Shown: positions 51,817-57,363 of the stretch, in pieces
How the letters are laid out: every line of letters starts with the position of its first letter
Numbering within the stretch: position 1 is the first letter of the stretch
Source: Actinomycetes bacterium
GTDB lineage: Bacteria; Actinomycetota; Acidimicrobiia; Acidimicrobiales; SZUA-35
Direction: 5' to 3'
Length of the DNA stretch: 64,000 nt
Assembly: GCA_024280015.1 (NCBI GenBank)
Contig: JAJRQY010000133.1
Coordinates: forward strand, 1 to 64,000
Translations under genes and position numbers: made by a program
Notes under the pieces: generated by a model
Databases searched by the model: none
Seen by the model: only the letters and a program-made list of their open reading frames with translations
What the model was told of the DNA's origin: nothing

Positions 51817-52692
51817 CTAGACACCAACCGGCTCCTGGTACTCCAAGCCAATGCGGGCAAGACGTGTCTTGAACTCACTGAGGATCGTATTGGCCAAGAT
51901 GGCTTCGGTCTCTTCAGAAGATGCGGTTGAAAGATCGATCCCGTGGAAGTAGGCAGCACCGACCTCGCCCACTGCCTCCCGTTCTTTCTCCACGGTCTCA
52001 CTATTGTGCTTGAAGCTCAGTTGGAGGGTCTTGAGCATGTGGAATGCCATATCCTTTTGCATCTGCTCGACCTCGGGCTTCTTCTCCGGGTGCTCCTTGA
52101 TGAGCGAGCCAATCCGGTTCTCACCAAAGCCAACATGGCGACGCTCATCAGCAATGGTGCCAGCCAGGGTGTGAGCAAACTTGGGGTTGGTCTCTCGATT
52201 CGTGATTTCCCGCATCTCAAAAACCGTGAAGGCCAGACCTTCCAGCACGATGTTCTGGCCGACGACTCCAGCGATGAAGTCACCGGAGTCGATCTTCTCC
52301 AACAGGACTTCGGCGAAGTTCACCAGGTGAGGGTTAACGAAATGGTCAATGGTCGATTCAAGATCGGCCCGCTTCACGCCCAGGTCATAGAGTCGCTCGG
52401 TGAAGATCTCAACATGGCGCGCCTCATCCAAGGTCTGGGTGGCCAGGAAGTGTTTCGATGGATAGTCCGGGGCAAGATTGACCAGGCCGGAGGAGGCAGC
52501 AAGTGCCGCCCGTTCACCCACTACTAACTGGACGGTGCTGCGAATAGCAGCGGTACGAAGCTCGTCATCCTTCAGGATCAGATCGGCTTCGGTTTCGCCA
52601 GCCTCATGCCCATTGACGGTGTCCTCCAAGTAGCCCTGTGGACATAGTTCCAGCCAGCGCTGGATCGAATAGGAGTTTAGAAAGTCGGCCAT
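51817..52692 (-). CDS. Di-iron ferritin-like (R2/R2lox-type) protein, paralogue C
   Basis: 291 residues. A four-helix di-iron signature is visible: Glu60, Glu90-x-x-His93 (LDEARHVE), Glu151 and Glu183-x-x-His186 (ADERRHVGFGE), the pattern of R2-like ligand-binding oxidases and ribonucleotide reductase R2 proteins, but without the R2 tyrosyl-radical context that I could confirm. The start ATG 52692 has AAGGGGA upstream. It is the last of five genes transcribed together from about 55971, 57 bases beyond the acyl-CoA dehydrogenase gene. It is almost the same as the 55096-55971 protein (see findings). Substrate unknown; oxidation of a lipid or acyl-CoA is plausible from the neighbours. Confidence 0.78.
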   Translation of the reverse strand: MADFLNSYSIQRWLELCPQGYLEDTVNGHEAGETEADLILKDDELRTAAIRSTVQLVVGERAALAASSGLVNLAPDYPSKHFLATQTLDEARHVEIFTERLYDLGVKRADLESTIDHFVNPHLVNFAEVLLEKIDSGDFIAGVVGQNIVLEGLAFTVFEMREITNRETNPKFAHTLAGTIADERRHVGFGENRIGSLIKEHPEKKPEVEQMQKDMAFHMLKTLQLSFKHNSETVEKEREAVGEVGAAYFHGIDLSTASSEETEAILANTILSEFKTRLARIGLEYQEPVGV

Positions 52693-52749
52693 GATGGTCC
52701 CCTTTTGGTGTGTGTTGGTTTTGGTTTTGTGAATAGCAGACGCTGGGGC

Positions 52750-53967
52750 CTACCCAGATTTGGCTTCTACGGATCGAGCCCTTTGGGCCAGCGTGCGACG
52801 ACCAAGGGAGGTTTTGTGAACCTCATCGGCACCGTCATAGATCCGACCAGCCCGCTCATGGCGGTACCAGTAGGACAAGATCGTGTCGTCAGTAAGCCCA
52901 AGGGCGCCATGTACCTGGATGGAACGATCAAGTACATCCAGCATGGTGTTAGCCACGGTGAACTTGATGGCAGAGATCTCATCGCGGGCGGCTTTGGCTC
53001 CAACCTGATCAATCATCCAAGCGGCGTGCAGGGTCATGAGTCTGGCACCTTGGATCTGGGCTCGGCTTTCGGCTACCCAATGTTGGATCACCTGGCGACT
53101 TCCCAATGTGTCGCCCTCGGGACTGATCTGTCGTTGGTTGGCTCGATCACACATCATGTCGAAGCTGCGGGTGGCGATGCCAAGCCAGCGCATGCAGTGG
53201 TGGACACGCCCTGGTCCAAGACGCTCTTGAGCAATAGCAAAGCCTGCCCCTTCGTGACCCAACAGGTTTGACTGGGGCACACGGCAGTCTTGGTAGAGAA
53301 TCTCGGCGTGAGATGCATGGCCACTTCCGCTGTGACCCATCACGCTGACATTGCGAACCAGGTTGAACCCTGGTGTCTTGGTCGGAACCAGGATCATGCT
53401 GGCTTGCTGATAGGTCGGCGCATCCGGGTCTGTTACCACCATGACAATGGCGAAGTCGGCTCCATCTGCAGATGAGGTGAACCACTTCTGACCGTTAATG
53501 ACATAGTCATCACCGTCTTTGATTGCCGTGGTCTCCATCATGGTTGGGTTGGACCCCGGCATGTTGGGTTCAGTCATAGAGAAACACGAACGAATCTCGC
53601 CTTCGACTAGGGGGCGAAGGAATCGCTCTCGCTGTTGGTCAGTGGCGTGGGTATGCAGGATCTCAATGTTGCCGGCGTCAGGCGCCTGGGTTCCAAAAAC
53701 CAGATGGCCAAGAGGGCTTCGGCCGAGGGCTTCGCTCAAGAGGCCGTGATCAACCAGGCTCAGGCCTAGGCCACCTAGTTCGCTGGGGTGATTTGGCGCC
53801 CACAGCTCCATCTGGCGAACCTTGGCCTGGCAAGCAGCTACCCCACTGGCGAGGGTTTCTGAGTCACCGTGCAGCATCTCGCCTTCAAGGGGAATGACCT
53901 CATCATCGATGAATTCATTGACCATTCCCAGGATGGTTTGCATCTCCTCCGAGACGGTGAAATCCAT
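52750..53967 (-). CDS. Acyl-CoA dehydrogenase
   Basis: About 405 residues from ATG 53967 (AGGAG eight bases upstream). Family features: N-terminal helical domain, CFSMTEPNMPGSNPT (FAD region), ADFAIVMVV, a central GLTDDTILSYWYRHERAGRIYDGADEVH (C-terminal catalytic and FAD region). The catalytic Glu cannot be assigned by eye. It oxidises an acyl-CoA with FAD, feeding electrons through ETF to EtfD-like oxidoreductases such as the gene at 4523-6805. In the operon it lies between a zinc ribbon and the di-iron paralogue C. Confidence 0.88.
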   Translation of the reverse strand: MDFTVSEEMQTILGMVNEFIDDEVIPLEGEMLHGDSETLASGVAACQAKVRQMELWAPNHPSELGGLGLSLVDHGLLSEALGRSPLGHLVFGTQAPDAGNIEILHTHATDQQRERFLRPLVEGEIRSCFSMTEPNMPGSNPTMMETTAIKDGDDYVINGQKWFTSSADGADFAIVMVVTDPDAPTYQQASMILVPTKTPGFNLVRNVSVMGHSGSGHASHAEILYQDCRVPQSNLLGHEGAGFAIAQERLGPGRVHHCMRWLGIATRSFDMMCDRANQRQISPEGDTLGSRQVIQHWVAESRAQIQGARLMTLHAAWMIDQVGAKAARDEISAIKFTVANTMLDVLDRSIQVHGALGLTDDTILSYWYRHERAGRIYDGADEVHKTSLGRRTLAQRARSVEAKSG

Positions 53968-53987
53968 TGGGCTGCTCCTCGCGCGTA

Positions 53988-54281
53988 CTAGTAGGTGACG
54001 TCGGTTTGTAGTGTTCCGTCTTCGCCCAACACGACAATCATGCGAGACATGCACGGCATGCAGTAGAGACGATCACCAACCCGGATCTCTCGTTTGGATC
54101 GGATGACGACCTTGCAAACTGGGCAGATGATTTCGTTCGGGCCAAGCTCGTCGCCTGGTCCTTCCCAGTGTCGATAGAACTTGCGCCACTTCTTTGGCAC
54201 TTCCCGAAAGCCGCACTCCTCCAACTCGAAGGTCTGCCGGGGAACTTCACTCAGAACTGCCTGTTCATTTGGATCGTTCAC
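53988..54281 (-). CDS. Small zinc-ribbon protein in the di-iron operon
   Basis: 97 residues with one ribbon, CPVC...CMPC (19 residues between pairs), in the C-terminal half and an N-terminal acidic half (VPKKWRKFYRHWEGPGDE). Its ATG overlaps the stop of the preceding di-iron gene by four bases (ATGA), so it is translationally coupled. Function unknown; a metallochaperone, subunit or regulator of the di-iron enzymes is possible from context. Confidence 0.7.
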   Translation of the reverse strand: MNDPNEQAVLSEVPRQTFELEECGFREVPKKWRKFYRHWEGPGDELGPNEIICPVCKVVIRSKREIRVGDRLYCMPCMSRMIVVLGEDGTLQTDVTY

Positions 54282-55099
54282 ACCAGGCCCAACCGGTCCA
54301 TGGTTTCGATGTATTCGCGCCCCATTGCCTCTCGCATCGAGGCATCTCCGGGAAGGTCATCCGCAGCCCGAGAGAACACCGCCAAGACCAGGCCGTCCAT
54401 CTCGTGGCGAATATCAGCCAGACGGCGACGGTTCCCCGGGTGCTCGGACAAGAGTCGGCCAAGGTCATTCTCCCCGAATCCCAGGTGACGCCGTTCGTCC
54501 TTCATCACCCCATTGAGGATCTGTGCTGTTACTGGATCAGCCGTCGTGGCATGCACCAGGAAGGCGGCATGTTCCATGCTTTCCAGGATCACATTCTGAG
54601 CCAGCAGAGCAGCAGACCAGTCGCCGGCCTTCACCAACTCCAACAAGCGTCGCTTAAACACCTGCAAGGTTGGATTGGCCCGACGCTCGATCTCGCCTTC
54701 GGGGTCGGTAACTCCAAGGTCCTGCAGGCGACGCAGGAACACTTCCAAGTGTCGAGCTTCGTCGACTACTTGGGTTGCCAGAAAAATCTTGGAGTGGCGA
54801 TTGGGAGCAATGGCAATCATGCCGCTGGCTCCCTCAAGTGCCGCGGTTTCTCCTACGCAGTAGTTGCAGAGGGTGGTAATCAGGGAGTCCTTGTCCGATT
54901 CGGTCAGATCGTCGGGCCGATCTGAGATTGGCTCGTCGCCAGATTCATGTCCATAGGGGTTATCAGTCAGGTATCCCTCGACTGCCTGGAACCAGAACTC
55001 AAAGGAATGAACTTCATCTAAGAAGTCCTCAGGGTTCATGCCGTGTGGATCAAACTCTGACGAATCAAACTCCGGCCGATCGACCTCACTCATGTTCAC
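54278..55099 (-). CDS. Di-iron ferritin-like protein, paralogue B (divergent)
   Basis: 273 residues from GTG 55099, overlapping the stop of the upstream paralogue by four bases (GTGA); ATG 55093 is an alternative. The N-terminal 35 residues are acidic. Di-iron ligands by position: Glu84, Glu114-x-x-His117 (VDEARHLEVF), Glu173, Glu202-x-x-His205 (KDERRHLGFGEND). It keeps all six ligand positions but is clearly different in sequence from the A and C copies, so it may form a heteromer or have a separate substrate. Confidence 0.78.
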   Translation of the reverse strand: MNMSEVDRPEFDSSEFDPHGMNPEDFLDEVHSFEFWFQAVEGYLTDNPYGHESGDEPISDRPDDLTESDKDSLITTLCNYCVGETAALEGASGMIAIAPNRHSKIFLATQVVDEARHLEVFLRRLQDLGVTDPEGEIERRANPTLQVFKRRLLELVKAGDWSAALLAQNVILESMEHAAFLVHATTADPVTAQILNGVMKDERRHLGFGENDLGRLLSEHPGNRRRLADIRHEMDGLVLAVFSRAADDLPGDASMREAMGREYIETMDRLGLV

Positions 55100-55971
55100 A
55101 CACCAACGGGAGCTTGGTATTCCAGACCAATTCTGGCCAGCCGGGTTCGGAACTCGCTGATGACCGTTGCTTCAAGAACGGCTTGCATCTCTTGCGAACT
55201 TGCGCTGGACAGATCGGTTCCGTGGAAGTTGGCTTCACCAACATCACCAATGGCTTCGCGCTCCTTGTCGACGGTGTCTGCACCCTCTTCGAAGCTGAGG
55301 CTGAAGGTCTTGAGCATGTGATAGGCCATGTCCTTTTGCATCTGCTCGACCTCGGGCTTCTTCTCCGGGTGCTCCTTGATGAGCGAGCCAATCCGGTTCT
55401 CACCAAAGCCAACGTGACGACGCTCATCAGCAATGGTGCCAGCCAGGGTGTGGGCGAACTTGGGGTTCGGGACTCGGTTGGTGGTTTCCATCATCTCAAA
55501 GACGGAAAAGGCTAGACCTTCCAACACGATGTTCTGACCGACGACTCCGGCAATGAAGTCGCCCGAGTCGATCTTCTCCAACAGGACCTCGGCGAACTTC
55601 ACCAGGTGAGGATTGACGAAGTTGTCAATGGTCGATTCCAAATCGGCCCGCTTCACGCCCAGGTCGTACAGTCGCTCGGTGAAGATCTCGACATGACGGG
55701 CCTCATCCAAAGTCTGCGTAGCCAAGAAGTGCTTTGATGGGTAGTCCGGAGCAAGATTGACCAGCCCAGAAGAGGCAGCAAGTGCAGCCCGCTCTCCAAC
55801 GACCAGCTGCACCGTACTGCGGATGGCGGCAGTGCGGAGGTCGTCATCCTCCAGGATTGACTCAGCTTCGGTCTCGCCTTCTTGGTGCCCGTTGACAGTG
55901 TCTTCCAAATAACCCTGTGGACAGAGCTCCAGCCAACGCTGGATCGAGTAAGAATTCAGAAAGTCGGCCAT
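55096..55971 (-). CDS. Di-iron ferritin-like protein, paralogue A
   Basis: 291 residues from ATG 55971 (GGGGA upstream), exactly the length of paralogue C and nearly the same sequence, with the same ligands (Glu60, Glu90/His93, Glu151, Glu183/His186). It is the first gene of the operon A-B-zinc ribbon-acyl-CoA dehydrogenase-C. The longer frame to 55995 adds only eight residues. Two inverted repeats upstream (56117-56165) suggest regulation. Confidence 0.8.
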   Translation of the reverse strand: MADFLNSYSIQRWLELCPQGYLEDTVNGHQEGETEAESILEDDDLRTAAIRSTVQLVVGERAALAASSGLVNLAPDYPSKHFLATQTLDEARHVEIFTERLYDLGVKRADLESTIDNFVNPHLVKFAEVLLEKIDSGDFIAGVVGQNIVLEGLAFSVFEMMETTNRVPNPKFAHTLAGTIADERRHVGFGENRIGSLIKEHPEKKPEVEQMQKDMAYHMLKTFSLSFEEGADTVDKEREAIGDVGEANFHGTDLSSASSQEMQAVLEATVISEFRTRLARIGLEYQAPVGV

Positions 55972-56207: not shown

Positions 56208-56579
56208 CTAAGCCTCGGTGGCCGGACGATGCAGAATCCCACTGGTGGGCGTGATGATCATCTGGATCCGGTCGCTATCACCTGATTGAGCATCTGAAAC
56301 TTCAACCGAACCACCGCCAACCAGCTCTGCCACTCCGTCAACAATCAGACTGTATTCACCCTCGGCAAACGCTGGCCACAAGAGGCTGAGCTCGGGCTGA
56401 ACGGCAATATTGCGTGAACAACTCCGCCCGGGTCTAGCCAAGATCTTGCCGTCGTCCAGACGAACCAGAAGCTGGATGATGTGTGGGCGACCCTCACCCG
56501 ACGACGTCATGACAAAGGGAGCGTTTCCATAGCGTTCCAACTCTGCTGCTAACTCCGTGACTTCAACCTTGATACTCAT
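56208..56579 (-). CDS. PNPOx-like split-barrel flavin/F420-type protein
   Basis: 123 residues with the split-barrel fold pattern: FVMTSSGEGRPHIIQLLVRLDDGKIL, RNIAVQPELSLLWP, and a final small beta hairpin. Members bind FMN or F420 and reduce small substrates; cofactor and substrate are not determined. It is divergent from the DUF2867 gene, sharing a promoter with two small inverted repeats. Confidence 0.75.
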   Translation of the reverse strand: MSIKVEVTELAAELERYGNAPFVMTSSGEGRPHIIQLLVRLDDGKILARPGRSCSRNIAVQPELSLLWPAFAEGEYSLIVDGVAELVGGGSVEVSDAQSGDSDRIQMIITPTSGILHRPATEA

Positions 56580-56641
56580 GGACGAGACAGTAGTGGCCCA
56601 GGATAAAGTCGCGCGACGTCATCCTGGAGGTGACGAAAACC

Positions 56642-56694
56642 ATACGGTAGCGTATTGTCTATCTGTACCAAGTGCACTATTGTCCATACGTATG
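56642..56694. promoter_or_regulatory. Inverted repeats in the divergent PNPOx/DUF2867 promoter
   Basis: ATACG-GTAG-CGTAT (56642-56655) and the palindrome CATACGTATG (56685-56694), the latter overlapping the probable start codon of the DUF2867 gene. ATTGTC is repeated between them. Confidence 0.45.
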
Positions 56695-57363
56695 AGTATG
56701 GGCAAGAGATTGAAACCTGAGGAGTACACGCAAGGCACCTGGCGAATTTCTGAGCTGGCGCAAGACTTCGAACTGTTGGACGTCTGGGCTCTGCCCGCCT
56801 CCGGCAGACTGGAAGAGTTCGGCGACTTGTGCGGCATCGTGCTGGATCCAAGTCCGGCTGCTAGCACATCCAGCAGCCGCCCCCAGCGGGCATCCGCATG
56901 GGCCTCAGACCAACTGTTCACCATCCGGTACAAGCTTGGAAAGATTTTTGGATGGGATGACGATGTCAACACTCTCCCAATACCCGGGTGTACGGAAACC
57001 TCTTTGAGGGAACGTTTGAGTGTGGAGGAGGCGGCAGAGTTGGACCAGTGGGATCAGACTCCGCAGCCTGAGGACTCAACGCAGGACCAGTCCACCACCT
57101 CATCACTCGAACTCGCCTTCCGACCAATACTCAAAACCGAAACCGAGTTTGCGGCGGAACTTTCGAACAAGACAGTTCACGCAGTCATGCACCTTGGGTG
57201 GGTCCAACTAGGACCGGACAGCTATGAGGGCCAGCTTGGTGTTTACGTAAAGCACCGGGGTCGCCTGGGACGGCCGTACATGACCGCTATCGCTCCCTTC
57301 CGGCATTATCTGGTCTATCCGGCCATGATGAAACGTATCGGCCGCTCCTGGCAAGCCCGCTAG
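56692..57363 (+). CDS. DUF2867-domain protein
   Basis: About 223 residues from ATG 56692, with the alternative start just beyond at 56698. It has the DUF2867 layout: KLGKIFGWDD, FAAELSNKTVHAVMHLGWVQ, and C-terminal YVKHRGRLGRPYMTAIAPFRHYLVYPAMMKRIGRSW. The function of this family is unknown. Upstream of the ATG the frame extends to 56557 across the promoter repeats, which are not coding. It converges with the methyltransferase gene. Confidence 0.75.
   Translation: MSMGKRLKPEEYTQGTWRISELAQDFELLDVWALPASGRLEEFGDLCGIVLDPSPAASTSSSRPQRASAWASDQLFTIRYKLGKIFGWDDDVNTLPIPGCTETSLRERLSVEEAAELDQWDQTPQPEDSTQDQSTTSSLELAFRPILKTETEFAAELSNKTVHAVMHLGWVQLGPDSYEGQLGVYVKHRGRLGRPYMTAIAPFRHYLVYPAMMKRIGRSWQAR

Follow-up and report, generated by a model that had tools for sequence, protein, structure and literature searches.

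In this study, we identified a conserved three-gene module (A-B-Zn) that encodes two ferritin-like proteins, sister members of the VlmB/ADO branch of dimetal oxygenases, and a small zinc-ribbon protein. The module was found in a stretch of 64,000 nucleotides, hereafter called the window. A-B-Zn is likely a multi-component oxygenase. More specifically, we propose, with a probability of roughly 45%, that its three components make up a self-contained, O2-using dimetal oxygenase, probably a di-iron one, that acts on an aliphatic acyl or ester lipid. At the sequence level, the module is a new and tightly conserved combination of known folds.

The five genes of the locus lie on the minus strand in the order A, B, Zn, ACAD (acyl-CoA dehydrogenase), and C (Table 1). 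This arrangement and the 4-nt overlaps at the A/B and B/Zn junctions confirm the layout given in a sequence-only reading of the same DNA, which had described a five-gene operon. The likeliest start of the ACAD gene is the ATG at 53967 (MDFTVSEE), 20 nt past the zinc-ribbon gene; a longer ORF from 54054 would overlap that gene. A promoter scan did not find a sigma-70-like site, and terminator-like sites were not clearly above the chance level. A blastn search of plasmids gave mostly weak matches to ACADs. The region upstream of A (56208-57363) holds a 123-aa ORF on the minus strand, which has no family match, and a DUF2867 protein gene on the plus strand. The gene order 123-aa ORF, methyltransferase-like gene, TetR, and P450 is common to the window and locus L024.

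Table 1 Genes of the A-B-Zn locus in the window.
Gene	Coordinates	Strand	Product and role
A	55971-55096	minus	291 aa counted from ATG; predicted VlmB/ADO-type ferritin-like dimetal oxygenase, core component 1
B	55099-54278	minus	273 aa; predicted paralog and sister of A, core component 2
Zn (zinc ribbon)	54281-53988	minus	97 aa; core component 3
ACAD	53967-52750	minus	405 aa; predicted ACAD10/11-LvaC-type acyl-CoA dehydrogenase family protein, optional partner
C	52692-51817	minus	291 aa; recent duplicate of A, ligands kept

When approximately 85,000 species genomes of bacteria and archaea were scanned with an A-type alignment, 27 further loci besides the window emerged; their titles, together with taxon-limited searches, suggest an origin in Acidimicrobiia and related actinobacterial MAGs. 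B and then the zinc-ribbon gene directly follow A, in the same order and on the same strand, in all 25 loci with room for them; the other two contigs stop at A or just beyond and were left out of this count. The junctions in the 25 loci are mostly overlaps of 1-4 nt or lie a few nt apart, with a largest gap of 87 nt. The A-seeded scan was complemented by independent whole-genome searches with zinc-ribbon and B models. Among 395 Acidimicrobiia genomes, the zinc-ribbon model matched in five (a module prevalence of ~1%) and the B model in six, namely the same five and one with a partial match (query positions 7-193 of 262), which probably sits at a contig edge. Across 396 genomes sampled from the whole phylum, the only two with the zinc-ribbon protein were ones in which the module had already been found. 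Because the independent searches find the same genomes, A, B, and Zn are gained and lost together. The distances of A and B are correlated across loci (r = 0.63, not corrected for the species tree). The module is distributed over a scattered set of uncultured Acidimicrobiia, and its flanking genes differ widely from locus to locus. The sequence-only reading had allowed that homologs might prove to be single and unlinked in most genomes; neighborhood analysis across Acidimicrobiia found those of A, B, and Zn adjacent and co-occurring.

The operon itself stands, but what is conserved is the trio A-B-Zn, neither the full set of five genes nor the combination suggested earlier, in which three di-iron enzymes are joined by one acyl-CoA dehydrogenase. 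An orthologous ACAD gene follows Zn in 3 of the 26 loci where this position is visible (the window, L024, and L031); in the A tree, these loci are split between two distinct regions. Along its whole length, C shares 87% identity with A, so that the supposed trio of di-iron proteins is a pair plus a recent duplicate. C pairs with the A of the window at 100/99 support, to the exclusion of the nearest locus, L024, and its branch is longer (0.16 vs 0.027); C is therefore a recent, faster-evolving copy that postdates the split from the nearest relative. C is missing from L024, and a C-type copy was found only in the window. Nucleotide identity between A and C is patchy, ranging from 62 to 97% per 60 nt with a peak at codons 181-220, perhaps a trace of gene conversion in the tandem pair. 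Locus L027 (1394-3335) is a second case with two A-type genes ahead of B-Zn; the tree does not show them as direct sisters, and the extra copy is separate from C.

The ligands of A (E60, E90xxH93, E151, and E183xxH186) are the same in all 28 sequences of the A type, and those of B (E84, E114xxH117, E173, and E202xxH205) in all 26 of the B type, including the divergent B of L043. The earlier assignment of A, B, and C as di-iron proteins, each with six ligands (E, ExxH, E, ExxH), is upheld, with all six present in the three proteins. A and B share 38% identity. Of the solved structures, VlmB (6d9f/8wvr) comes closest to each of them, with ADO or R2lox next. A matched VlmB at 1.7e-14 in phmmer, and the B profile matched VlmB at 3.5e-13 and then ADO at 3e-10. 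A has no family match in Pfam, and it reaches R2lox models only below the threshold. The tree with distant outgroups separates A from B at 90/85 support, while its long branches make the placement of VlmB or FDO paralogs unreliable.

Diagnostic residues of other ferritin-like families are absent from both proteins, at positions equated by ligand spacing or offset rather than by superposition. The residues that form the Val-Tyr ether cross-link in R2lox are replaced by A63/Q146 in A and A87/Q168 in B, where the Ala is invariant and the Gln invariant or nearly so. The radical Tyr of class I RNR R2, four residues after the first His ligand, is Phe in 27 of 28 A and 26 of 26 B sequences. The seventh His ligand of AurF/CmlI, four residues before the last ExxH with the spacing taken from Dob3 (PMC13061610), corresponds to Thr179 in all A and Val198 in all B sequences. 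Together, the nearest structure, the invariant ligands, and the absence of AurF, R2lox, and RNR diagnostic residues place A and B as sister paralogs in the VlmB/ADO ferritin-like dimetal oxygenase branch. A scan of viral contigs with A gave matches of ~27-36% identity, which were taken to be RNR R2-type proteins and set aside as irrelevant.

If A alone were catalytic, B and Zn would be chaperone or regulatory proteins. This division of labor agrees with the higher mean column identity of A (76% vs 68% for B) and with the extra copies in the window and L027, which are of the A type alone; we consider it fairly unlikely, given that the six B ligands are kept in all 26 sequences, even in L043. 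The closeness to VlmB in both structure and sequence suggests another reading, in which the module tailors a nitrogen-containing natural product (azoxy, N-oxide, or similar), as the azoxy synthase VlmB does by oxidizing nitrogen. However, VlmB-like genes in Streptomyces adjoin serS, a VlmO-like membrane protein, and an ACAD-fold enzyme, in one case with a flavin reductase, and this serS/VlmO-like set is not seen among the module flanking families listed. Moreover, a search of nine module genomes for a VlmO-like hydrazine synthase at E 0.01 gave no match; its two control records were positive, and a very divergent VlmO could escape it. Identity to VlmB-like proteins is low as well, at ~27-32%, and we regard the nitrogen-product reading as unlikely.

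About as improbable is an ADO-like aldehyde-deformylating pair that makes alkanes from fatty aldehydes. B does exceed the Pfam Ald_deCOase cut-off, the VlmB homolog 6d9f was deposited with aldehyde-deformylating activity, and the WS/DGAT genes near the module (see below) would fit a fatty alcohol/aldehyde pool. Yet B scores 36.4 bits against a cut-off of 222.65 for the NCBIfam ADO equivalog TIGR04059, to which A has no match, and acyl-ACP reductase (AAR, TIGR04058), the one aldehyde source searched, had no match above the cut-off in ten module genomes while the Synechococcus control was positive. We know of no ADO system that has a zinc-ribbon partner.

The third component has four Cys residues (CPVC-x17-CMPC) that are invariant in 26 sequences, a conserved N-terminal extension of aromatic and basic character, and a C-terminus that reads V-x-(Y/F) in all 26, one with an extra Q. 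It has no family match in Pfam, NCBIfam, or PHROGs, and its profile found no meaningful match among PDB sequences. Its predicted structure (pLDDT 87) matched the LysW zinc ribbon over ~46 residues with a modest score (Z 4.9), suggesting that the two proteins share a common fold only. Rubredoxin was not seen among the fold matches listed.

The neighborhoods of the module point to the class of substrate. Wax ester synthase/DGAT (WS/DGAT) genes occur in the flanks of 6 of 27 loci (L030, L032, L034, L037, L040, and L044), whereas their density in ten module genomes would predict 0.39; since the neighbor families were picked after the flanks had been seen, the probability is indicative only. L032, L037, and L040 are syntenic, and a rearranged cluster is common to L030 and L044; the WS/DGAT neighborhoods hence represent about three to four independent events. 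Esterases, other ACADs, a MaoC protein, and P450s are also found near module loci, and most loci carry neither WS/DGAT nor ACAD. The nearest lipid-type genes in the window, according to Pfam and NCBIfam searches, are ACAD and a P450 (59271-60527). These neighbor genes lend moderate support to an action on lipids or esters. They also agree with the lipid or acyl context of the sequence-only reading; the desaturation pathway it had envisaged received no specific support. Two further arrangements were seen. In L042 (6281-7863), a P450 gene and a small gene for a ferredoxin-like protein, a possible electron donor, lie directly upstream of the module, and L039 (707-2023) encodes, close to the module but on the strand opposite to it, another ferritin-like protein of ~440 aa with a sub-threshold AurF match.

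The best solved relative of the window ACAD is mouse ACAD11 (8v3u, 2e-86). An HCMR motif (HHCMR in the window), an upstream Arg, and a catalytic Asp are present in the ACADs of the window, L024, and L031, and missing from the neighboring ACADs of L029, L032, L036, and L037. The HCMR region and the upstream Arg are common to ACAD11 and bacterial LvaC and are needed in ACAD11 for the elimination of phosphate from 4-phosphoacyl-CoA (PMC12440821). Judged by these residues, the window ACAD appears to be of the ACAD10/11-LvaC type rather than a conventional dehydrogenase, equipped for 4-phosphoacyl-CoA chemistry. A paralog with the same three features is encoded elsewhere in the genome (contig C98). 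No 4-hydroxyacyl-CoA kinase (LvaA-like) is fused or adjacent to the operon ACAD, and the 20 APH-family kinase matches scattered through the genome include none assignable as its partner. On contig C13 of this genome (30098-31808), one APH-family kinase match adjoins an ACAD match on the same strand, a possible LvaA/LvaC-like pair. A 4-hydroxyacyl pathway via the window ACAD is possible, and speculative.

We propose the following scheme for the three-component oxygenase. A and B would assemble into a hetero-oligomer that holds two metal sites; the zinc-ribbon protein would have a structural, assembly, or coupling role instead of serving as a rubredoxin-type electron carrier. Electrons would be supplied by a general ferredoxin or flavin reductase, and an aliphatic acyl or ester lipid would be oxidized at a C-H bond or an aldehyde carbon. 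In the genome of the window, the product, possibly a hydroxyacyl chain, may be passed to the ACAD10/11-LvaC-type enzyme; known enzymes of this type take off a phosphorylated 4-hydroxyl group and thereby open the way for the chain into beta-oxidation. In its boldest version, the scheme describes a new class of heteromeric oxygenase: two different VlmB/ADO-type subunits, both metal-loaded, and a dedicated zinc-ribbon protein would hydroxylate acyl chains and feed the ACAD11-type enzyme, giving a bacterial route by which 4-hydroxyacyl-CoA is made and then removed; we regard this version as a long shot.

No described family or system matching the A-B-Zn set was found, and the open-access literature contains no description of the module that we could find, in line with the sequence-only reading, which knew of no described system of this kind. 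Because the A and zinc-ribbon families have no Pfam entry, annotation pipelines would miss the module. Its components nevertheless resemble known proteins. LysW, an amino-group carrier, shares the zinc-ribbon fold, whereas its EDWGE carrier tail is absent from all 26 module proteins, which have the N-terminal extension instead and show no demonstrable sequence homology to it. The window ACAD resembles ACAD10/11 and LvaC, which belong to 4-hydroxy acid catabolism, in its motif residues and differs in having no fused or adjacent kinase and in being encoded with a di-iron oxygenase module. R2lox (R2-like ligand-binding oxidase) has the same ferritin-like dimetal fold (Z 23.0 for the predicted A structure, pLDDT 87), with weak similarity in NCBIfam. 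Cyanobacterial ADO shares the 2-His/4-carboxylate ligands, the DE..H..(Y/F)GE motif, and the fold of A (Z 23.7), whereas the module proteins fall far under the equivalog cut-off, have a longer N-terminus, and come with an obligate paralog and a zinc ribbon. VlmB, from the valanimycin pathway, is closest: the ferritin-like fold of A matches it almost from end to end (279 residues, Z 29.5), and the six ligands align. Identity, however, is ~24-32%, and VlmB-like genes are single in azoxy-type clusters, whereas the module consists of two paralogs and a zinc ribbon. Characterized VlmB- and ADO-type enzymes are, to our knowledge, single polypeptides. Two fully liganded sister enzymes that are inseparable from a zinc-ribbon protein across Acidimicrobiia suggest that uncultured bacteria have a multi-component architecture of a new kind and, in their lipid or ester oxidation, a step not yet assigned.
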